Below, piece by piece: positions 6,985 through 40,409 of a stretch of DNA of 64,000 nucleotides. A program made the translations under genes and the position numbers. Each line of letters begins with the position of its first letter. Within the stretch, counting starts at the first letter, position 1. The notes beneath the pieces are model-generated. The model ran no database searches, was not told where the DNA came from, and was given only the letters and a program-made list of their open reading frames with translations. The stretch comes from Flavobacteriaceae bacterium (GTDB taxonomy: Bacteria; Bacteroidota; Bacteroidia; Flavobacteriales; Flavobacteriaceae): assembly GCA_023262185.1 (NCBI GenBank), contig JALRDO010000009.1, positions 1 to 64,000 of the forward strand, written 5' to 3'.

Positions 6985-7395
6985 ATGATTGCTACCATCT
7001 GCCGAAAGGCTCATTTTAATGCCGCACATCGATTGCACAATCCAAAATGGAGTGATGCCAAAAATATTGAGGTATTTGGAAAATGCAATAGTGCACATTT
7101 TCACGGGCACAATTTTGACCTTGAGGTTCGCGTTCGCGGAGAGGTGGATCCTGACACCGGTTTTGTAATTGACTTAGGCGTTCTGGGAGTGATCATTAAA
7201 GAGCATATCGAAGATCGATTCGACCACAAAAACCTCAATCTTGATTGCGAAGAGTTCAGTGATTTATTGCCTTCTACAGAACACTTTGTCAAGGTTATTT
7301 ACGATATTTTAAAGCCTATTCTTGGTGCTCAATATCAATTGCACATTACACTTTTTGAGACCGCAAAGAATGCTGCTGAATACGGCGATTGGTAA
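6985..7395 (+). CDS. 6-pyruvoyl-tetrahydropterin synthase / QueD family protein
   Basis: Zinc enzyme acting on 7,8-dihydroneopterin triphosphate. Zinc-binding histidines are in HFNAAHRLH and in the HGH of CNSAHFHGH. The catalytic Cys is six positions before the first His of HGH (CX5HGH), the spacing I associate with true pyruvoyl-tetrahydropterin synthases, whereas queuosine-pathway QueD normally has CX3HGH; the product may therefore be a biopterin-type cofactor. I chose ATG 6985 (136 residues) over an upstream TTG at 6967, because the -7 box overlaps that extension. It converges with murF 1 base later. Confidence 0.78.
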   Translation: MIATICRKAHFNAAHRLHNPKWSDAKNIEVFGKCNSAHFHGHNFDLEVRVRGEVDPDTGFVIDLGVLGVIIKEHIEDRFDHKNLNLDCEEFSDLLPSTEHFVKVIYDILKPILGAQYQLHITLFETAKNAAEYGDW

Positions 7396-7396
7396 G

Positions 7397-8680
7397 CTAT
7401 AAGGCTTCTAAGATTTGCTCGAGAGCCATCCCTCTAGAACCTTTTATGAGTAGGTTGAGCGTTCGTACTTCTTCGGGTAGCGTTGAGATGAAGTCTTTGG
7501 TGCTATTGAAGGTTTGATATTCATTTTTGGTCCCTGTAAAGTGTTCTCCTAATAGATAAACCTTCTTAAATCCGAGAGACTGAACGAAGTTGACAATATT
7601 TTGGTGTTCGAGTGCACTATCTGATCCGAGCTCAAACATATCTCCTAAGATTACTCCTTTGTGCTGCCAATCAAGGGTATCGAAAACTTTTAAGGCCGAA
7701 ATCATACTGCTTGGATTGGCGTTATAAGCGTCTAATAGTATCTTCTGCTGCCCCCACTCGATAATTTCTGATCGCATGCTTGAAGGAACATAGCCCGTGA
7801 TTCCTCTTATCGCATCTGCAGCTGGTATTCCAAAATAACTTCCGATACATAGGGCGGCGGCGCAATTGACTGCATTGTACAACCCGAATAACAAGCTCTC
7901 AAAGGGCTGACCCTGAAAAGAGAGGTGTAAATGAGGGGTTTCGGATAAAACGACCAGGTTGCATTCAGCCGTTGAAGCATTCGAATCACATATTCCATAA
8001 GCGACTTTATGCGAATAGTCTATTATGGCCTTTTGTTGGATGGAGTCTTGACTGTTGTAAAAGAGGGTCCCATCTTTGGCTTTGAGGTGATTATAGAGCT
8101 CTTGTTTTCCTTTAATCACCCCTTCAACACCTCCGAAACCTTCTAGATGGGCTTTTCCGAAATTGGTAATCATTCCGTGCGTAGGATCTGCAATATTCGC
8201 TAGAGCTGCAATTTCTCCTTGATGATTGGCACCCATTTCAATCACAGCCATCTCATGGTCGGGATTCAAACCTAGAAGCGTTAGGGGGACACCAATGTGA
8301 TTATTAAGGTTCCCCTGAGTGACTAAAACCTGGTATTTCTGACGCAATACACTGTTTATAAGTTCTTTGGTAGTGGTCTTACCATTACTTCCCGTTAAAG
8401 CGATCACCGGAATGTCAAAGGTTTTTCGGTGAAAACGGGCTAACTCTTGTAGTGTGATCAGCGGATCATCAACATGAATGAGTTGAGGATGATCTGAAGA
8501 AAAGGCGTTGCTTACGATGGCATAATGCGCCCCTTGATTCAGCGCCTCAAGAGCAAAGTCATCTGCATTAAATGCAGGTCCTTTCAAGGCAAAAAAGAGT
8601 TGCCCCTTCTTGAGCGTTCTCGTATCAGTACTTACTCCATTACTCTCTAAAAAAAGACGGTGTAGCTCTTGAAGTTTCAT
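7397..8680 (-). CDS. murF: UDP-N-acetylmuramoyl-tripeptide--D-alanyl-D-alanine ligase
   Basis: Cytoplasmic ATP-dependent ligase adding D-Ala-D-Ala to the UDP-MurNAc tripeptide, the last soluble step of peptidoglycan precursor synthesis. It has the Mur ligase ATP loop TGSNGKTTTKE, the NNHIGVPLTLL segment, the MGANHQGEI motif and the substrate-domain DAYNANPSS signature of MurF. The frame is open to 8764, but that extension would run through the promoter region; the ATG at 8680 gives MKLQELH and a normal 427-residue protein. A candidate promoter lies just upstream on this strand. Confidence 0.9.
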   Translation of the reverse strand: MKLQELHRLFLESNGVSTDTRTLKKGQLFFALKGPAFNADDFALEALNQGAHYAIVSNAFSSDHPQLIHVDDPLITLQELARFHRKTFDIPVIALTGSNGKTTTKELINSVLRQKYQVLVTQGNLNNHIGVPLTLLGLNPDHEMAVIEMGANHQGEIAALANIADPTHGMITNFGKAHLEGFGGVEGVIKGKQELYNHLKAKDGTLFYNSQDSIQQKAIIDYSHKVAYGICDSNASTAECNLVVLSETPHLHLSFQGQPFESLLFGLYNAVNCAAALCIGSYFGIPAADAIRGITGYVPSSMRSEIIEWGQQKILLDAYNANPSSMISALKVFDTLDWQHKGVILGDMFELGSDSALEHQNIVNFVQSLGFKKVYLLGEHFTGTKNEYQTFNSTKDFISTLPEEVRTLNLLIKGSRGMALEQILEAL

Positions 8681-8698
8681 ATAGAATTCTTGAAAGTC

Positions 8699-8706
8699 TA
8701 AAGATA
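8699..8706 (-). promoter_or_regulatory. Candidate -7 box of murF
   Basis: On the minus strand TATCTTTA fits TAnnTTTG with one mismatch and ends 18 bases before the murF ATG. It supports the shorter murF start. No convincing -33 element is visible. Confidence 0.35.
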
Positions 8707-8756
8707 CGTATTGAACGAATGTTCGTATTTTAAACTTTTGATATAATACGGTACCC

Positions 8757-9782
8757 ATGCGCAAACTATTGGCGTTATTTTTCTTTCTTCCTCTTTCTTT
8801 TTTCGTTCAAAGCCAAGAGGAGGTCCTTCCAAACGCGGCAGTTCTATGGATTCGGATACCTGCCGACATCAGGGCCTCAGGTATGGGAGATACAGGAGTT
8901 GCCACAGAGGCTGATGTGAATGCTGCACGCTGGAATCCAGCAAAATTGGTTTGGCTGGGGCATACTACTGAGTTGGGAGTTTCATACTTGCCTTACCTAA
9001 GAACCTTGATCCCTGATGCTTTTTTATTGGGTGCCAACTACGCGAAGCGGATTAACGATGAGAATAGTCTGGCTATAGGATTTACCTATTTCACGATCGG
9101 AGAGGTACCGCTAAGAGAAACCATTGATCAAGAAGCGTTAATTGTTCAGCCATATACATTTACCATAGACGTTGCTTATGGATTACAGCTCAACGACGAG
9201 CTTTCGGTAGGAGCTGGATTGCGCTTTATCAGCGACAACCAGCAAACGCCAGACGATTTCACTAGCGATCGAGCCGGAAATGCTCTTGCGGCAGACGCGG
9301 GTGTTTTTTATCGCTCTAGGTTACGTGTGACTGAAGGGAACGACACACGCTGGAGGGCAGGTATTGCCTTGACGCAAATCGGAACCCCTATTTCTTATGT
9401 TTCAGATGGACCTGAGTCTCCGTTGCCCTCAACGCTGCGCTTTGGTGTAGGGCGGGACATCATCTATGATTACGATTCTATGCTCTCGCTGACCCTTGAA
9501 GCGAATACTTTGGTGGTTAACGATGCTGATCGTTCATGGGGAGTGGGATTGGGAGGCGAATATGTTTTTAGGGGAGATCTATTCTTGCGATCGGGATACT
9601 ACATCGATACCGCCTCAAACACCGATAGGAACTACCTTACGGTAGGCGCGGGAGTACGTCGTGGAAACCTCTTACTAGACATGTCGTATTTGTTTTCAAC
9701 GAGTAGAGTAGTCAACCCCTTTGAGAATACCTTGAGGCTTGGTGTAACATTTAGTTTTGGTCAGCGATTCTATCATTATTAA
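8757..9782 (+). CDS. porV: PorV/LptO-like type IX secretion outer-membrane barrel protein
   Basis: Outer-membrane beta-barrel related to PorV (LptO), the FadL-like shuttle that delivers type IX secretion cargo to the PorU sortase. It begins with a signal peptide (about 1-20, cleavage near VQSQ). The family block follows: IPADIRASGMGDTGVATEADVN then WNPAK. Repeated amphipathic strands and a terminal aromatic (YHY) fit a barrel. At 341 residues it is somewhat short for PorV. In many Flavobacteriia porV lies just upstream of cdd and pdhA, as partly seen here, though porU and cdd are absent. A PorV paralogue is the alternative. Confidence 0.75.
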   Translation: MRKLLALFFFLPLSFFVQSQEEVLPNAAVLWIRIPADIRASGMGDTGVATEADVNAARWNPAKLVWLGHTTELGVSYLPYLRTLIPDAFLLGANYAKRINDENSLAIGFTYFTIGEVPLRETIDQEALIVQPYTFTIDVAYGLQLNDELSVGAGLRFISDNQQTPDDFTSDRAGNALAADAGVFYRSRLRVTEGNDTRWRAGIALTQIGTPISYVSDGPESPLPSTLRFGVGRDIIYDYDSMLSLTLEANTLVVNDADRSWGVGLGGEYVFRGDLFLRSGYYIDTASNTDRNYLTVGAGVRRGNLLLDMSYLFSTSRVVNPFENTLRLGVTFSFGQRFYHY

Positions 9783-32573: not shown

Positions 32574-33098
32574 ATGAAATTTTTCAAGCTTCTATGGGTG
32601 CTGACCCCATTGATTTATTCTTTTGAATACCGCAGCGAGGATAAATCCTACACCGCTTATATCTTCATGGGCCTCGAGTGTCCTATCTCTCAAAAATACA
32701 TCCCCACCTTGAATGAGATAGCCGATTCACAGACCGATTTAGCGATAATTGGGGTGTTTAGTGGAGCAATTACTGATCAAGAGATAGCCAAATTTAAAGC
32801 CCAGTTTGGAGTTGAATTTGAATTGGTGTCGGATGTTCATTATAAGTTAGCTGATAGGTATAAGGCATCCGTTACCCCTGAGGTGTTTTTGATCGATGCC
32901 TTTGGTGCATTGCGGTATTCAGGAGCTATTGACAATTGGTTTGTGAGCCTCGGAAGAAACCGCTTTAAACCAAGTGAATTTTATCTACTTGACGCTTTGG
33001 CAGCCATTAGGAAAGGAAACGAAGTCGATCCGGATAGAACCTTACCCATAGGATGCTTTTTAGAACGCAATAAAGCGATGTCTCATGAGCACCATTAA
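32574..33098 (+). CDS. Redoxin / thioredoxin-fold protein
   Basis: A 174-residue thioredoxin-like protein of the peroxiredoxin/SCO-type redoxin group. An N-terminal hydrophobic stretch (about 5-18) suggests export or membrane anchoring. The active-site motif is ECPISQKY, so only one of the two redox cysteines remains (CxxS). The later SVTPEVFLID segment supplies the cis-proline. Its last 14 bases overlap the following cytochrome c gene, so the two are coupled and may form a periplasmic electron-transfer pair. The exact reaction is unknown. Confidence 0.75.
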   Translation: MKFFKLLWVLTPLIYSFEYRSEDKSYTAYIFMGLECPISQKYIPTLNEIADSQTDLAIIGVFSGAITDQEIAKFKAQFGVEFELVSDVHYKLADRYKASVTPEVFLIDAFGALRYSGAIDNWFVSLGRNRFKPSEFYLLDALAAIRKGNEVDPDRTLPIGCFLERNKAMSHEHH

Positions 33099-34308
33099 AT
33101 CAATTTTGACCATAGGGTTGATGGGGGCAGTGGCTACAGTAGGAGCACAAACTACCTATGAGAAAGATGTAGCTCCTATTATTCAAAAAAATTGCGTGAG
33201 CTGTCACACGCCAGGAGGTTATGGTCCATTTTCACTGCAAACCTTTAACGATGTTTATAAGCGCGCAAAATTTATAGGTCATGTTACTCAAACGCGATAT
33301 ATGCCTCCATGGAAGGCAGATCCAACTTTTAGTCGGTTCGCAAATGAACGTTTTTTGAGTGATGATGAAATTGCTACCATACAACGGTGGATTGATGAAG
33401 GATTGTTGAGAGGTGAGGATAATTCAGAATCGCCAAGAATTATTGAAATTACTGATGAGGAGCCTGCAGATTTGGTTTTAGAGATGGCCAAGCCATTTGA
33501 ATTATCCAATAATGGGATAGAGGACTATCGTTTTTTTCATATTCCTACTGGCCTTAAAAAGGACACCTATGTATCCAAGATTGAATTCATTGCAGGAAAT
33601 AAGCGCTATTTACATCACAGTCGCGTTATGGTAGATACTTCAGGTCAAACTGCCGGAATTGACGGGCTTTCAGAATTTGATCCGCTATCTAGATTCTTTC
33701 AGACCCAACCTTTAATGGATGAATTTCTATATGGTTGGGTTCCGGGAAATCTTCCGGTAACTTTCCCTAAGGGTATTGCAAAATTAATTCCAGCAAACTC
33801 TGATTTAATCCTTAACATACATTACGCCCCATCTGCAGAAAGAGTTACCGATTTATCGGCAGTGAAATTATATTTTTCAAAGAATCCTGTTGAACACCTG
33901 GTAAAGAGTTTTTATATCGAAGAAGAGGATATCGCAAATCCCCCTTTCATTATAAAGGCCTATGAAAAGCCGACGTTTTATGTCAGTAAGACGATCACCC
34001 AAGACATGAATGTGGTTTCTCTTTTGCCGCATATGCATTTCTTAGGTAAAAAAATGGTTGCCTTAGCCATCACACCTGATAATAAGGAAATCCCTTTGAT
34101 ACGTATCAATGATTGGGACTTTAATTGGCAAAGCACCTATTTGCTTCAAGAGCCTTTATTTTTACCAAAAGGTACCGTACTATTACTAGTAGCTGAATAT
34201 GATAACACTATTGAGAATCCATTAAATCCATCGGATCCACCTCGTGACGTAACTTATGGTTGGAATTCTACGGATGAAATGATGAACCTAATCTTTTATT
34301 ATTACTAA
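33085..34308 (+). CDS. Monoheme cytochrome c fused to a copper type II monooxygenase-like (PHM) domain
   Basis: Exported 407-residue protein with a signal peptide (about 1-21), an N-terminal cytochrome c domain with heme site C37-V-S-C40-H41, then a region resembling peptidylglycine alpha-hydroxylating monooxygenase. The copper ligands seem complete: adjacent His177-His178 and His246 for the CuH-like site, His316-x-His318 and Met399 for the CuM-like site, in the same order as in PHM (HH, H, HxH, M). This suggests an oxygen-activating periplasmic enzyme fed by its own heme, inferred from motif order only. The upstream redoxin gene overlaps by 14 bases. Confidence 0.74.
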   Translation: MSTIKSILTIGLMGAVATVGAQTTYEKDVAPIIQKNCVSCHTPGGYGPFSLQTFNDVYKRAKFIGHVTQTRYMPPWKADPTFSRFANERFLSDDEIATIQRWIDEGLLRGEDNSESPRIIEITDEEPADLVLEMAKPFELSNNGIEDYRFFHIPTGLKKDTYVSKIEFIAGNKRYLHHSRVMVDTSGQTAGIDGLSEFDPLSRFFQTQPLMDEFLYGWVPGNLPVTFPKGIAKLIPANSDLILNIHYAPSAERVTDLSAVKLYFSKNPVEHLVKSFYIEEEDIANPPFIIKAYEKPTFYVSKTITQDMNVVSLLPHMHFLGKKMVALAITPDNKEIPLIRINDWDFNWQSTYLLQEPLFLPKGTVLLLVAEYDNTIENPLNPSDPPRDVTYGWNSTDEMMNLIFYYY

Positions 34309-34310
34309 TA

Positions 34311-34343
34311 AAAAAGGCCACCTTTTTGGGGTGGCCTTTTTTT
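34311..34343. terminator. Bidirectional intrinsic terminator
   Basis: AAAAAGGCCACC pairs with GGTGGCCTTTTTT around a short loop; A tract on the left and T tract on the right let it end both the cytochrome gene (+) and the lipoprotein gene (-). Confidence 0.88.
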
Positions 34344-34362: not shown

Positions 34363-35307
34363 TTATTCTTTACATAGATCAAGTAGCATAAGCCCTTGAG
34401 CTCTAGCGGCATCATAAGGAACCCAATTTAAAAGGGTATTTCCATTAGGATTTTTGATGGTTACACCAACCTCAGAATCCCAATCTCCTTTGTTATAGCT
34501 AAAGTACATTGAGCTTGAGCCAGCTGGAATAGTGATAGTTGCAGAAGCTGCTGCTGCGGCTACAGTAAATGAAGTGAACACTGCTCCATCAACATACACA
34601 TCAATTGATGCGCCGTTCCATCCGTCACCATATGCATCAATACCGGTTATAGTCCAATCTCCTGTTCTTAATGTGATTTCTGTTGCACATGTAACACCCC
34701 AGTCGATAGCGCAATTGGCTTCTGGGAATTCCGTACATACAGAAGGCGACCAAGAATCAAAGACTCTTCCATCTTCGGTAGTTAGAACCCAAGTAAGTCT
34801 AAAGGTATCTCCAGGAACAAACTTTTTGTTTGCTCCACGTCCTTTTCCAAGCGGGTCTGAATAAACTGATTGAGATCCGTTTCCAAATCCATAATCAAAG
34901 GTGGCTGATGAATAAACATTATAAACCTCCGCTTGACTTATTGAGAAGGATCCAAACTCACCATCTGCTTTAGGGGTAATTGATTTTACCTTTTTCCCTT
35001 GAGCACCTCCATGTGAGGCAACAGCCTTGTTACCATCCTTGTCTGTATATTCCTCGTTAAAGGTTACATAAAGGTCAATATTAGTCACTGTATTTAACTT
35101 ATCGATTGATTTCCATTTGAAATTCACGTCGATAGTTGCCGCGGCGTTAGATGTACTAAAACCAACAGCAGGATCTGATGTTAGTAGTCCATAACCATGA
35201 ACTCCAGATTCCCAATCAGGAACAGCAATTAAAGATTCATCTTTACAAGATAGTAAGGTAACTGCTATAAGTGATAGAGAAAACAAATATGTAGTTATTC
35301 TTTTCAT
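34363..35307 (-). CDS. SusE-position lipoprotein with a GDGWNG domain
   Basis: Outer-membrane lipoprotein: a signal peptide ends at a lipobox LLSC near residue 21. The N-terminal part (about 25-190) is an unrecognised beta-rich region; the C-terminal part contains the block TGDWTITGIDAYGDGWNGAS (about 217-236), a calcium-type loop domain that recurs in secreted proteins of marine Bacteroidota. It follows SusD by 21 bases and probably serves as an accessory surface glycan- or peptide-binding protein of the SusCD unit. Substrate unknown. Confidence 0.72.
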   Translation of the reverse strand: MKRITTYLFSLSLIAVTLLSCKDESLIAVPDWESGVHGYGLLTSDPAVGFSTSNAAATIDVNFKWKSIDKLNTVTNIDLYVTFNEEYTDKDGNKAVASHGGAQGKKVKSITPKADGEFGSFSISQAEVYNVYSSATFDYGFGNGSQSVYSDPLGKGRGANKKFVPGDTFRLTWVLTTEDGRVFDSWSPSVCTEFPEANCAIDWGVTCATEITLRTGDWTITGIDAYGDGWNGASIDVYVDGAVFTSFTVAAAAASATITIPAGSSSMYFSYNKGDWDSEVGVTIKNPNGNTLLNWVPYDAARAQGLMLLDLCKE

Positions 35308-35328
35308 CGTTTCTATATGTTTAATTTA

Positions 35329-37062
35329 TTAAAACTGGAATTTTAAAGAATCCCAGAATACAGCAGAACTCGGAGAGTCATAAACCTTGCTAGGTGTATT
35401 GCTATTCAAATTCACTTCGTCTTGAGCGTACGGTAAGCTCAACGCGTACTGTCTAGGCAACTGCATAGGTGCTTGTATATCTGCTGGAAGACCAGTTCTT
35501 CTGAAAGCATTATATCCTTCGAATCCGTTACCAAAATTAGCTTTCCATGCTTGTTTTAGCACATATCCTAATTTTTGATTTTCAGTACCTGCAGCAGGGT
35601 AAGCAGCTTTTACATTTGCAATATAATCTGCTTGCGTAAGATATGTTACGGCCCATTGGCTATAACTAGCTGGCCAAGTGGTTACATCTGCTTTAGCGTT
35701 TGCATCAGCTGTAGTTCCAACCTTCCATACTTTTGCAAACTGATCAGTTAAGGCTGATGCTAATAGATCAGCATCACTAGATCCAGAATTTACTCCCAAA
35801 GTGATTTGAGCTTCAAGTAGGTAGAATTTAACCATCCATGAAGTAATGATTGGGAAAATACCATCCCCTTTTCCATACTTGTTACCACCTGTAGTACCAT
35901 ACGTTGCATCAAACAATCCTGCTCCTGGGTAGGCTGCAGTGGTAGTTCTAAGTGGGTTATCGTTAGGAATACCTGATGGATCTGAACGATCTCTTCCAAA
36001 GAATCCTGCGAGGTATGCAGCTTCTTTTGAAGAAAGTGCACTGGCATCTTTTCCGTAAACTGCTTGAGTTACGAAATTACTAAGCGGGAAATATCCATAA
36101 GTACAATCCGTTCTTTGAGAACAAGGAATAGTCTGCTTGTCAGTTGGATCTTCCGGGTTTAGAATAGTAGCGGTCTGTCTTTTAAAATAAAACGGTGTTC
36201 TAGGATCTTTAGAAGCTAGCATTTCTGTCATTAATTGGTGACCGAAATAAGAATATCCAGCATCCCCACCAACATAACCTGCTTGATACATTGGGTGACG
36301 GTTATCAGGATTTTTCAAAGCTCCATAGCGCAATACAAAGTCATCGGCTTCAGATTTAATATAGTTACCTTCAGTAACAATAGCTTGAATGGCAGCTCCG
36401 TTGCTTTGAACATTACGTGTTTGAATTAAAAGTCTAAGCTTTAATGAATTAGCCATTTTAATCCATTTGGTAGCATTACCACCGTATATGATATCTCCCT
36501 TAACCGAACCAGAAGTTCCTGTCAGGTTAGCTATCCCTTTATCAATCAATGAGAAGGCATCCGCATAAATATCAGCACCTTTATCATAAACGGGCTCTAG
36601 GATTTTCTCTTCTCCTAAAGCATTTCCTTTAAATGCTTGTGTGTATGGAACATCCCCCCAAAGGTCTACCATCATAGTAAAATAGTAGGCCTTTAGAATT
36701 TGGGCAATCCCCAGATATTTTGGATTTGTTTCTGGATCTGCTGCAGCGATTAATTCTTCAAGATCCTTTAAAGGTCCTGAGTATAGGAAGTTCCAAGTAC
36801 CGTTCCAGCTAGAATTTGTAAAGTTAAAGTCATCGCTAGAAGTGTTAATGGCTTGAAAGCCCATGGTGGTGTTATTGAGACCTCCACCGAAAGTGCTTAT
36901 TCCTTCCCACTGTGAGTTTGTAAGCAAGAGCTCTAACGATGCTTGGCTTGCACTGTTTGGATCTACGTTAATATCTAGATCATCAAGCTCACATGATATC
37001 ATTCCTAGAGCAAGGATACTTCCTCCAAGAAAGAAACGTATGTTATTGAATTTGAATTTCAT
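35329..37062 (-). CDS. SusD/RagB-family outer-membrane lipoprotein
   Basis: Substrate-binding lid of a SusCD importer. A lipobox GMISC follows a hydrophobic signal; the family block is seen in ILKAYYFTMMVDLWGDVPYTQAF, typical of the SusD-like_2 group. I prefer the ATG at 37062 (577 residues, MKFKFNNIRFF) to the open frame start at 37086, because it leaves 27 bases after the SusC stop. It is cotranscribed with SusC and the lipoprotein. The ligand cannot be read from sequence. Confidence 0.88.
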   Translation of the reverse strand: MKFKFNNIRFFLGGSILALGMISCELDDLDINVDPNSASQASLELLLTNSQWEGISTFGGGLNNTTMGFQAINTSSDDFNFTNSSWNGTWNFLYSGPLKDLEELIAAADPETNPKYLGIAQILKAYYFTMMVDLWGDVPYTQAFKGNALGEEKILEPVYDKGADIYADAFSLIDKGIANLTGTSGSVKGDIIYGGNATKWIKMANSLKLRLLIQTRNVQSNGAAIQAIVTEGNYIKSEADDFVLRYGALKNPDNRHPMYQAGYVGGDAGYSYFGHQLMTEMLASKDPRTPFYFKRQTATILNPEDPTDKQTIPCSQRTDCTYGYFPLSNFVTQAVYGKDASALSSKEAAYLAGFFGRDRSDPSGIPNDNPLRTTTAAYPGAGLFDATYGTTGGNKYGKGDGIFPIITSWMVKFYLLEAQITLGVNSGSSDADLLASALTDQFAKVWKVGTTADANAKADVTTWPASYSQWAVTYLTQADYIANVKAAYPAAGTENQKLGYVLKQAWKANFGNGFEGYNAFRRTGLPADIQAPMQLPRQYALSLPYAQDEVNLNSNTPSKVYDSPSSAVFWDSLKFQF

Positions 37063-37089
37063 TTTTCTTTTGTTTAGAGATTTCAATAA

Positions 37090-40000
37090 TTAGAATGTCA
37101 AACTAAGGTTAAAGCTAATGCTGCTAGTAGTTGGTGTAGCGCCATATTCAAAACCTTGAACATTAGACCCGGCATTTTCTGCCAATACCTCTGGATCAAG
37201 ATTTAATCCTTCTAGCATGTTAGGAGCTTTCCACCATAGGTTACGTCCACTAACTGCTAAAGCACCTGATCCGAATGGAGTCTTATCTAATAATCGTTTA
37301 GGAATATCATAGCTTAATGCTACTTCACGTAAACGAATAGTTGTAGCGTCATAAATATTCACCTCATCCTGTCCATAAGCACCCCATCCGTTAGAGAAGT
37401 GTGAGTCAAATGCAGTAATAGGGGTGGTATTTCGAATCTTATTTCCACTAGCGTCAAGAACTGCTTGGAAAGTTTGGTTACTACCGTAAACTCCAGGAAC
37501 AACACGTAAATCTTCACGTTCTACAGAATTAGCTAACTGTCCTCTTAACATCAAAGAGGCTGCGGTGAAGGAATAGATATCACCACCTTCTCTCCAGTCA
37601 ATTAACGCACGAAGCGTAACATTCTTAAACTTGAAGCTATTAGTAATACCTAAAGTAAAATCTGGGTTTGGATCTCCAACTACTGTAGATACCTCTGCAG
37701 GGAAAGGAAGACCAGTTGCTTTATCAATCAGCAAGTTTCCTTCGTTATCCTTGGCGTTTTCAGTACCGAAAATTTGCCCGTAAGGAAGACCGTTTCTATG
37801 GATAGTTCCTAGTGAAGAACCAGGACCACCGATAAAGATCTCTCCATTTGGACCAGCATCAACAACTAATGATTTGATTTTAGTGAATGCGAAGTAGGTA
37901 TTCCAAGTAAAGTTGTCATTGGCAATAGGATAGACATCCATTCCTATTTCTAGTCCTGTATTGTCAAGCTGACCAATGTTAACTACCTGACTTGTGAATC
38001 CACTTGAACGAGCAACAGAAGCTGTTGCAATTTGCTCGGTAGAAGTTCTCTTAAAGTAGGTAACATCCAAACTCATTCTATTATTGAATAAAGTAGTGGC
38101 TAAACCTGTTTCGAATTCTGTGGTAAACTCAGGTTTTAACGTTGAGTTACCTAAAGTATTAGCCAAGGCCGCTCTATTTAGCGCACCATAAATCGGCGAG
38201 GTAAATGGAGTAAGGATGTTAAAGTTTGTAAGTGTTCTGTAAGGCGAAGCATCGTTACCAACTTTGGTGTTTGAAACTCTCAATTTCAAGCTATTGATTA
38301 CTTCTGGTAATTCAACGGCTTCACTAAGTAGGAATGATAAACTCGCTCCTGGATAGAAATAGCTGTTAGCATCCGATGGAAGAGTTGAAGAATAATCCTG
38401 TCTTCCAACCAAGCCCAAATATAGCATATCCTTGTAGCCTACAGACACATCAGCAAAAACACCATAAAGTCTTCTAAGACTTAAAAAATCATAGTCAACA
38501 ATTTGGGTAGAAGTGGCACTTGTAATATTTAAACCACGTGAAATGATTTGATTACCAGTAACAGCACGACTAGTGCGTTTTCTTTCGTTCGCGTTTAGAC
38601 CAGCAACAGCTGTTAAGGAGATATCATCACTTAAATCCTTGTTGATGTTTAATAGGGCAGTAAAGTCGCGTTCAGTATTGTTGACATCGACTGTTGAAAC
38701 ATTACCTAAAGCATTGTAAACCCCTCCTGGAACAATATTACTTCTTTGGAAATCATGGTAGTTATTGATACCACCTTTAAGAGTTACATTGATTCCATCA
38801 GCGATATCATATCCGATGGTAAGGTTTCCATATGCGCGATTTACATCAGATTTATACAAGTTATTGTTTGCAATCCAAATTGGGTTGTCTAGTGCACGAT
38901 AGAAAATATTCGATCCATCAGCAGGGTTTTCCCAAGGGAGACCCATTAAGTCGAAGTTTCTAGGTAGATAGAATAAACGTGCATAGAGCGATCCTCCACC
39001 ACCTCCATAATAATCGTTGAATGCAGATGCACCTGAACGAGGAGATTGCTGCGAAGTATTCACATAATTCACGGTACCTGAAACAGTTATTCCATTGTCG
39101 AGAGTTGCATTTCCTCCGGCAAAGAAACTCGTTCTTCTAACAAACTGATTAGGAACTATACCTCCTTGGTTGGTATTTGAAAATCCAGCATTAACGTTGG
39201 CTTTCTCACTACCTCCACTCAAACTAACAGCATGATCCATGGTTTGACCTGTTTGGAAGAATCCTCCCACAATATCGTTTGCTTTGATTTCGTAAGGAGC
39301 AGAAACATTTCTTACCGATCCATCAGGCATAGTGTACTTCTGCATTAATTCAGGAAACACATTAGGAAATCTGTTTGAAACAGGGTTTGAAGCATATCCA
39401 TCTGGATATGGTTTTCCGTCAGGATATAGTGAATAGGTTTTGGTATAATTAGTACCGTATTGTTGATTAATTCTATCCACATGATTAGGCATTGGAGAAC
39501 CCCAGTTTCCAATGAATGCCCCGTTATACACCTGGTTCGACCCTTGAGTATAAACGTCTTGGTAATCAGGAATACCAGAAATATTAGTGGTCATCATAGA
39601 ACCATTGTAGGTAACCTCTAATCCTTTACGTGTTCTAGTAGAAGCTCCTTTGGTCGTAATTACCACCACACCATTTGTAGCACGAGATCCGTAAAGCGCA
39701 GAAGCAGCAGCACCTTTAAGTACCGAAATACTTTCGATTGAGTTAGGATCTAAGTCAAAACCACGGTTTGAAAACACAGTGTTTTGTCCTGCACTAGCTG
39801 TTGCATTAGTACTATTGTCAAAAGGAATACCATCAACTATGAATAAAGGTTGGGTGTTACCTGTTAGAGAAGACATACCGCGGATGTTGATCTTTGTACC
39901 CTGTCCAGGAGCTCCACCACCACCGGTAATGTTCACCCCAGTCATTTTACCTTGCATTGCACGAAGTAAGTCTGGTTCGGCACGCCCTTGAACATCTTCG

Positions 40001-40383
40001 CCCGTAACTTTTGCGACCGCATAACCTAACGATCTAGCTTCTCTTTTAAGACCAAGTGAAGTAACAACCACCTCGTCTAGTTGCTGGGCATCTTCTTCCA
40101 TTTGAATGGAATAGAAGTCGCTTGAACCAACGGTAATGCGTACTTCTCTTTGACCAATGTAAGAGAGTACAAGAACATCTCCTACAGACGCCTGAAGTGT
40201 AAAGTTACCGTCAAAATCAGATTGAGTTCCAGTAATGGTTCCATCGATAATGATGTTAACACCAGGCAGCGGAACATTTGACGAGTCTGTCACTGTTCCT
40301 GAAATCGTCTTCGACTGCGCAAAAGTGAACTGCGCAACTAACACTAAAAGAAGAGTTAGGATTCCATTTGACATTGCTTTCAT
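37090..40383 (-). CDS. SusC/RagA-family TonB-dependent outer-membrane receptor
   Basis: TonB-linked outer-membrane importer of about 1097 residues. Order: signal peptide (ending FTFAQS), carboxypeptidase regulatory-like domain (ISGTVTDSSNVPLPGV onward), the DEVVVTSLG TonB-box-like segment, plug domain (GRAEPDLLRAMQGKMTGVNI to VLKGAAASALYGSRATNGVVVI), and a 22-strand barrel ending in SFNLSLTF. ATG 40383 or 40395 could be the start; I prefer 40383, the first residue of a typical signal peptide. It is the first gene of the SusC-SusD-lipoprotein operon, with no enzyme gene beside it. Confidence 0.92.
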   Translation of the reverse strand: MKAMSNGILTLLLVLVAQFTFAQSKTISGTVTDSSNVPLPGVNIIIDGTITGTQSDFDGNFTLQASVGDVLVLSYIGQREVRITVGSSDFYSIQMEEDAQQLDEVVVTSLGLKREARSLGYAVAKVTGEDVQGRAEPDLLRAMQGKMTGVNITGGGGAPGQGTKINIRGMSSLTGNTQPLFIVDGIPFDNSTNATASAGQNTVFSNRGFDLDPNSIESISVLKGAAASALYGSRATNGVVVITTKGASTRTRKGLEVTYNGSMMTTNISGIPDYQDVYTQGSNQVYNGAFIGNWGSPMPNHVDRINQQYGTNYTKTYSLYPDGKPYPDGYASNPVSNRFPNVFPELMQKYTMPDGSVRNVSAPYEIKANDIVGGFFQTGQTMDHAVSLSGGSEKANVNAGFSNTNQGGIVPNQFVRRTSFFAGGNATLDNGITVSGTVNYVNTSQQSPRSGASAFNDYYGGGGGSLYARLFYLPRNFDLMGLPWENPADGSNIFYRALDNPIWIANNNLYKSDVNRAYGNLTIGYDIADGINVTLKGGINNYHDFQRSNIVPGGVYNALGNVSTVDVNNTERDFTALLNINKDLSDDISLTAVAGLNANERKRTSRAVTGNQIISRGLNITSATSTQIVDYDFLSLRRLYGVFADVSVGYKDMLYLGLVGRQDYSSTLPSDANSYFYPGASLSFLLSEAVELPEVINSLKLRVSNTKVGNDASPYRTLTNFNILTPFTSPIYGALNRAALANTLGNSTLKPEFTTEFETGLATTLFNNRMSLDVTYFKRTSTEQIATASVARSSGFTSQVVNIGQLDNTGLEIGMDVYPIANDNFTWNTYFAFTKIKSLVVDAGPNGEIFIGGPGSSLGTIHRNGLPYGQIFGTENAKDNEGNLLIDKATGLPFPAEVSTVVGDPNPDFTLGITNSFKFKNVTLRALIDWREGGDIYSFTAASLMLRGQLANSVEREDLRVVPGVYGSNQTFQAVLDASGNKIRNTTPITAFDSHFSNGWGAYGQDEVNIYDATTIRLREVALSYDIPKRLLDKTPFGSGALAVSGRNLWWKAPNMLEGLNLDPEVLAENAGSNVQGFEYGATPTTSSISFNLSLTF

Positions 40384-40409
40384 ATAAATTAACATTTGTT
40401 TAAGAGTAG

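Follow-up and report, generated by a model that had tools for sequence, protein, structure and literature searches.

The window, the whole 64,000-nucleotide stretch of a Flavobacteriaceae contig analysed here, contains an overlapping gene pair for a redoxin and a heme-fused copper monooxygenase, and next to it genes for a SusC transporter, a SusD-like lipoprotein and an unclassified lipoprotein, called LIPO below. The reading towards which we lean, with restraint, is an uptake-and-oxidation system in which a heme-wired copper monooxygenase would act on an imported substrate with the redoxin as helper. More tentatively, and as a proposal that we would not presume to hold, Bacteroidota may possess a TonB-coupled uptake-and-oxygenation system of this kind, made of SusC/SusD and a new lipoprotein family, a periplasmic two-copper monooxygenase fed by its own heme, and a redoxin helper.

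In the proposed scheme, SusC/SusD and LIPO would carry the substrate over the outer membrane, and we infer that the periplasmic enzyme of 407 residues would hydroxylate it with O2. Electrons would arrive singly at the N-terminal His/Met heme c, a stand-in for the ascorbate of the animal enzymes, and would move on to CuH, the copper with three His ligands (H177, H178, H246), and then to CuM, the His2Met copper (H316, H318, M399). There they would be used, with O2 activation and attack on a C-H bond as in PHM and DBM. The redoxin would be a dedicated helper, most likely keeping the copper/heme protein assembled and reduced through copper or thiol handling, or alternatively supplying electrons from thiols to the heme. 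If the scheme is true, it would add an ascorbate-free, cytochrome-wired branch to the PHM/DBM class and give a SusCD locus an oxygenase of its own, and through the SusCD link the question of the substrate would become approachable via transport mutants.

The redoxin-monooxygenase gene pair

The redoxin gene (32574-33098, plus strand) encodes an exported AhpC-TSA/thioredoxin-like protein of 174 residues, with a match to PF00578 above the cut-off (E 2.7e-7). The second gene (33085-34308, plus strand) encodes a cytochrome c - PHM/DBM-type copper monooxygenase of 407 residues with an N-terminal signal sequence. Both ORFs lie where a preliminary description of the pair had placed them and share bases 33085-33098, the 14-base overlap claimed there. 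The 407-residue protein was matched by the Pfam model Cu2_monoox_C (PF03712, E 2.8e-6), and as the match passes the Pfam cut-off, the copper monooxygenase domain is not a chance similarity. At the N-terminus of the protein, the Pfam matches were of cytochrome type only, with Cytochrome_CBB3 below the cut-off. The source genome is a small one (1.64 Mb, 94 % complete; Bacteroidota). The 407-residue protein is the only one in it that matches PF03712, and the redoxin is the sole member of its family.

Copper and heme sites of the monooxygenase

A PDB search with the single 407-residue sequence gave no match, but a profile of 19 relatives succeeded and found human DBH (2e-8) and rat PHM (2e-7). The six residues for which copper binding in the order of PHM had been claimed, H177, H178, H246, H316, H318 and M399, are all in place in the profile alignment and invariant in 84 of 84 sequences. 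His177-His178 (33613-33618, plus strand) correspond to the CuH ligands H107/H108 of PHM and His246 (33820-33822, plus strand) to the third CuH ligand, H172. On the CuM side, His316-x-His318 (34030-34038, plus strand) align with H242/H244 and Met399 (34279-34281, plus strand) with M314. The ligand spacings of 68, 70 and 81 are close to those of PHM (64, 70, 70), and Q349, aligned with Gln272 of PHM, is invariant in the 84 bacterial relatives.

The structure prediction of 33085-34308 that the preliminary description had called for gave an AlphaFold (AF2) model of high quality (pLDDT 93.3, pTM 0.86), which matches PHM and DBH over about 295 residues; at the level of the fold, the refuting outcome named there did not arise. 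The top 31 Foldseek matches in the PDB were all DBH or PHM (E 2e-14 to 2e-10), with a TM (target) of about 0.6 for PHM, and the double jelly-roll core fold of PHM is present in the model. Sequence and model together indicate that in this protein a c-type heme domain precedes a PHM/DBM-type two-copper monooxygenase domain, which is complete. The protein has the double jelly-roll, the order of the six copper ligands and the equivalent of Gln272 in common with PHM (PDB 1opm, 1sdw). PHM has no heme, whereas the 407-residue protein has an N-terminal heme c, is bacterial, is paired with a redoxin and often occurs with SusCD. DBH (PDB 4zel) was the best match both in structure (E 2e-14) and in the profile search (2e-8), and the two proteins each have an extra N-terminal domain. 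In DBH this is a DOMON domain, which Pfam did not find in the 407-residue protein; a cytochrome c stands in its place.

The heme site, read earlier as CVSCH at residues 37-41 (33193-33207, plus strand), is indeed there, with C37, C40 and H41 invariant in the 84 relatives. The probable axial ligand is Met73 in YMPPW (33301-33303, plus strand), also invariant in the 84 sequences. The combination of CxxCH and axial Met that characterises class I cytochromes c is found in the 407-residue protein and in all 84 relatives. PHM and DBM are regarded as animal enzymes dependent on ascorbate, and it is plausible that here the built-in heme c replaces ascorbate as the electron donor of the copper monooxygenase. 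The two coppers of this class are about 11 Å apart, and heme-driven electron entry, if proven, would give the long debate on electron transfer over this distance a simpler test case. The window protein stops at the PHM domain and is therefore probably periplasmic.

The redoxin as partner of the monooxygenase

We surveyed the neighbours of the monooxygenase at 78 genome loci, taken from the matches listed in a similarity search with this protein. The redoxin turned out to be next door to the monooxygenase, or fused with it, in 57 of the 78, which bears out the earlier view of the two as a pair and makes the redoxin, with its overlapping gene, a real partner of the monooxygenase. Separate redoxin ORFs directly adjoin a monooxygenase gene in 52 of 55 cases (hypergeometric P about 1e-33, assuming free positions and inflated by kinship among the loci), and the redoxin is the upstream gene in 41 of 48 same-strand cases. 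Fusions in the order redoxin - cytochrome - PHM were found at five of the 78 loci. They are known from Bacteroidota, Planctomycetota and Armatimonadota, and the family to which the window belongs also includes genomes with redoxin-monooxygenase fusions (L043-L045). Four loci (L116, L137, L140 and L145) have PHM - redoxin - PHM triplets, with two different paralogues around one redoxin that form two separate clades on the tree; this suggests a two-enzyme unit in some Flavobacteriales.

Regarding the residues of the redoxin, the alignment of relatives shows conserved Cys36-Pro37, Asp87, Glu103 and Gly160-Cys161, with P102-E103 belonging to a putative cis-Pro motif, TPE. The CxxS centre of the preliminary description is present in the window as CPIS, but its Ser is not conserved, and CPxS, CPxC, CPxT, CPxA and CPxV all occur. 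The fourth position thus varies where thioredoxin, TlpA and ResA have their CxxC, and the TPE cis-Pro motif is there. The redoxin profile came closest to PDB 2ywi and 2cvb, proteins of the PRX_like1/ResA type with a thioredoxin fold, with which it has the Cys-Pro start, the TP cis-proline motif and the distal Gly-Cys in common. It differs from them in being exported and linked to a monooxygenase and in the lack of a conserved CxxC.

The match to the AhpC-TSA family, the Cys-Pro conserved as in peroxiredoxins and a second conserved Cys that could act as resolving Cys would also suit a peroxide scavenger, which would guard the copper enzyme from H2O2 of uncoupled turnover and supply it with neither electrons nor metal. 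We consider this role somewhat unlikely, as the peroxiredoxin motif PxxxTxxC is absent from the alignment (no Thr stands three residues before the conserved Cys-Pro) and by its profile the redoxin is closer to 2ywi/2cvb and to thioredoxin folds of the ResA type that have the TP(E) cis-proline motif. A helper in copper or thiol handling remains the role that we prefer for the redoxin.

SusC, SusD and lipoprotein genes at the locus

Three genes on the minus strand face the pair. LIPO (34363-35307) is an unclassified lipoprotein of 314 residues with an SCKD lipobox, included here for its genomic linkage to the monooxygenase. Beyond it, at higher coordinates, lie a SusD-like lipoprotein (SusD-like_2, 35329-37086; PF12771, E 2.6e-52) and a SusC/RagA TonB-linked outer-membrane transporter of 1101 residues (37090-40395; TIGR04056, 589 bits with a cut-off of 368). 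The locus therefore has the adjacent SusC TonB receptor and SusD lipoprotein by which SusC/SusD uptake systems are recognised. The importer genes and the pair occupy different strands of the window and hence are not one operon there. The two convergent sets have between them a GC-rich near-perfect palindrome, read from the sequence and flanked by an A-run and a T-run (34311-34341), a probable bidirectional terminator. It was not listed in the terminator (consensus) scan, and the Rfam matches piling up on it were sub-threshold only.

In the source genome three SusC/RagA proteins score above the curated TIGR04056 cut-off (contigs C7, C22 and C87), so the locus represents a third of the SusCD capacity of the genome. 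LIPO matched no Pfam or NCBIfam family. Its model is a beta-sandwich (pLDDT 86) for which the PDB gave generic Ig-like/beta-sandwich matches only (TM about 0.2, none diagnostic), and no function can therefore be drawn from the fold. As in known SusCD/RagAB pairs, SusC is above the TIGR04056 cut-off, SusD is of the SusD-like_2 type and a lipoprotein gene lies alongside. In contrast to them, no glycoside hydrolase or peptidase adjoins, and the partner is an oxygenase.

By neighbour clustering, SusC, SusD-like_2 and LIPO adjoin the redoxin-monooxygenase pair at 18 loci from about ten Bacteroidota families (Flavobacteriaceae, Fulvivirgaceae, Catalimonadaceae, Saprospiraceae, Spirosomataceae, Flammeovirgaceae, Cytophagaceae, Chitinophagaceae, Cyclobacteriaceae and Haliscomenobacter-like genomes). 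A frequent arrangement among them is co-directional, SusC>SusD>LIPO>redoxin>PHM. Carriers of a linked cluster include the culturable Fulvivirga lutimaris (L086) and Fibrisoma montanum (L096). The preliminary description had recommended a survey of neighbouring genes; it confirmed the redoxin partner and brought out the SusC-SusD-LIPO unit, which had been overlooked.

Neighbouring genes and the substrate

Recurrent arylsulfotransferase-family genes in a few lineages hint at aromatic or sulfated compounds. The clusters of L100, L103 and L229 contain such a gene or have one as a neighbour, and in L100 and L229 it is accompanied by chromate-transporter and sulfotransferase genes. In three genomes with the PHM pair elsewhere it comes directly after SusCD-LIPO, and distant LIPO homologues also adjoin a gene of this family. 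The enzyme might accordingly oxidise an aromatic or sulfated small molecule by a DBM-like benzylic hydroxylation, coupled to sulfate transfer in some relatives. We judge this unlikely, as the window cluster and most SusCD-linked loci have no arylsulfotransferase gene beside them, the ASST name is an annotation only and the repeated occurrences may stem from a single lineage. Near the cluster, neither a riboswitch nor any other RNA hinting at a substrate was found.

In the Cyclobacteriaceae-type loci L087-L095, DUF1611 and dipeptide-epimerase-like genes precede the pair and siderophore-type ABC transporter genes face it, an arrangement that may be inherited synteny. These neighbours were set aside because they are confined to one clade with shared ribosomal-operon synteny.

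Linkage of the importer genes to the pair

The SusC, SusD and LIPO genes (34363-40395) belong with the redoxin-monooxygenase pair, and the uptake system is specific to one clade of the monooxygenase. In a reverse test we used LIPO as query against 150 genomes of one family, probably Spirosomataceae, and took the best 20 loci with their flanks. The monooxygenase was next door or one gene off in 18 of these 20, and one of the two loci without it ends at a contig edge. A sample of 345 Bacteroidota genomes yielded just two more strong LIPOs of full length, each located no more than about 5 kb from a monooxygenase. The PHM profile had matches in 131 of the 345 genomes, most of them short stretches; these mainly covered the cytochrome region by itself and were left out of the counts. 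In seven Cyclobacteriaceae-type genomes the pair is unlinked, and six of them encode LIPO at another site (E below 1e-84), in each case together with SusD, whereas six genomes whose PHMs are outlying gave no LIPO. In the tree of PHM sequences, those linked to SusCD-LIPO all fall within one clade of 24 (SH-aLRT 98), and the linkage trait requires four changes as against 13 in shuffles.

The importer genes are missing from most of the wider monooxygenase family. Among near relatives in Flavobacteriaceae, L035, L084 and L085 have the redoxin-PHM pair with no LIPO at the locus, and in L084 and L085 LIPO is absent genome-wide; the importer is therefore not obligatory. Such relatives, and the convergent orientation of the gene sets in the window, are what would be expected of chance or inherited neighbours functionally unrelated to the monooxygenase. 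That explanation is improbable given that the linkage recurs in about ten families despite varied flanking genes and orientations, that the reverse LIPO search leads back to the monooxygenase and that LIPO co-occurs even where the pair is unlinked.

Peptide amidation

In PHM the peptide carboxylate is bound by Arg240 and Tyr318. The position of Arg240 (residue 314) is Leu in the window protein and never Arg in the 84 sequences, which makes peptide amidation unlikely. At the position of Tyr318 (residue 403) the window protein has Ile, and Tyr occurs in 12 of the 84. With no Arg240 and Tyr318 rare, the group has the PHM/DBM core without the substrate pocket of PHM, and the substrate is probably not a peptidyl-glycine. 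A genuine peptidylglycine alpha-hydroxylating monooxygenase that would make or recycle amidated peptides, with a RagAB-like SusCD to import peptides, is thus highly improbable in spite of the PHM fold and ligands, the Asn kept in the window protein at the position of PHM N316 (variable among the 84) and the known import of peptides by RagAB-type SusCD pairs, and no amidating-lyase domain was found fused to the monooxygenase or among the neighbouring genes.

Extent of the family

Judged by sequence, the 407-residue protein is not an isolated oddity and belongs to a large uncharacterised bacterial group of at least 568 genome loci. Six closer sequences served as the query of the genome scan. Our literature search found no description of bacterial heme-fused PHM/DBM relatives. 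Some members have additional parts. A long homologue in L138 (6001-7536) ends in a T9SS sorting tail (PF18962) and is therefore probably exported to the cell surface; long homologues with such tails may act outside the cell, which counts against a periplasmic location for those proteins. The same tail, with the same probable destination, is present on an arylsulfotransferase-family protein in L225 (9114-10778). This is one of three loci (L223-L225) in which an arylsulfotransferase-family gene comes after SusC-SusD-lipoprotein genes and the genome carries its redoxin-monooxygenase pair at another site; the arylsulfotransferase-family gene of L223 is divided between two frames. In L037 a monooxygenase homologue of 777 residues (7337-9670) has a Kunitz/BPTI domain near the C-terminus and is directly followed by an aldehyde dehydrogenase gene.
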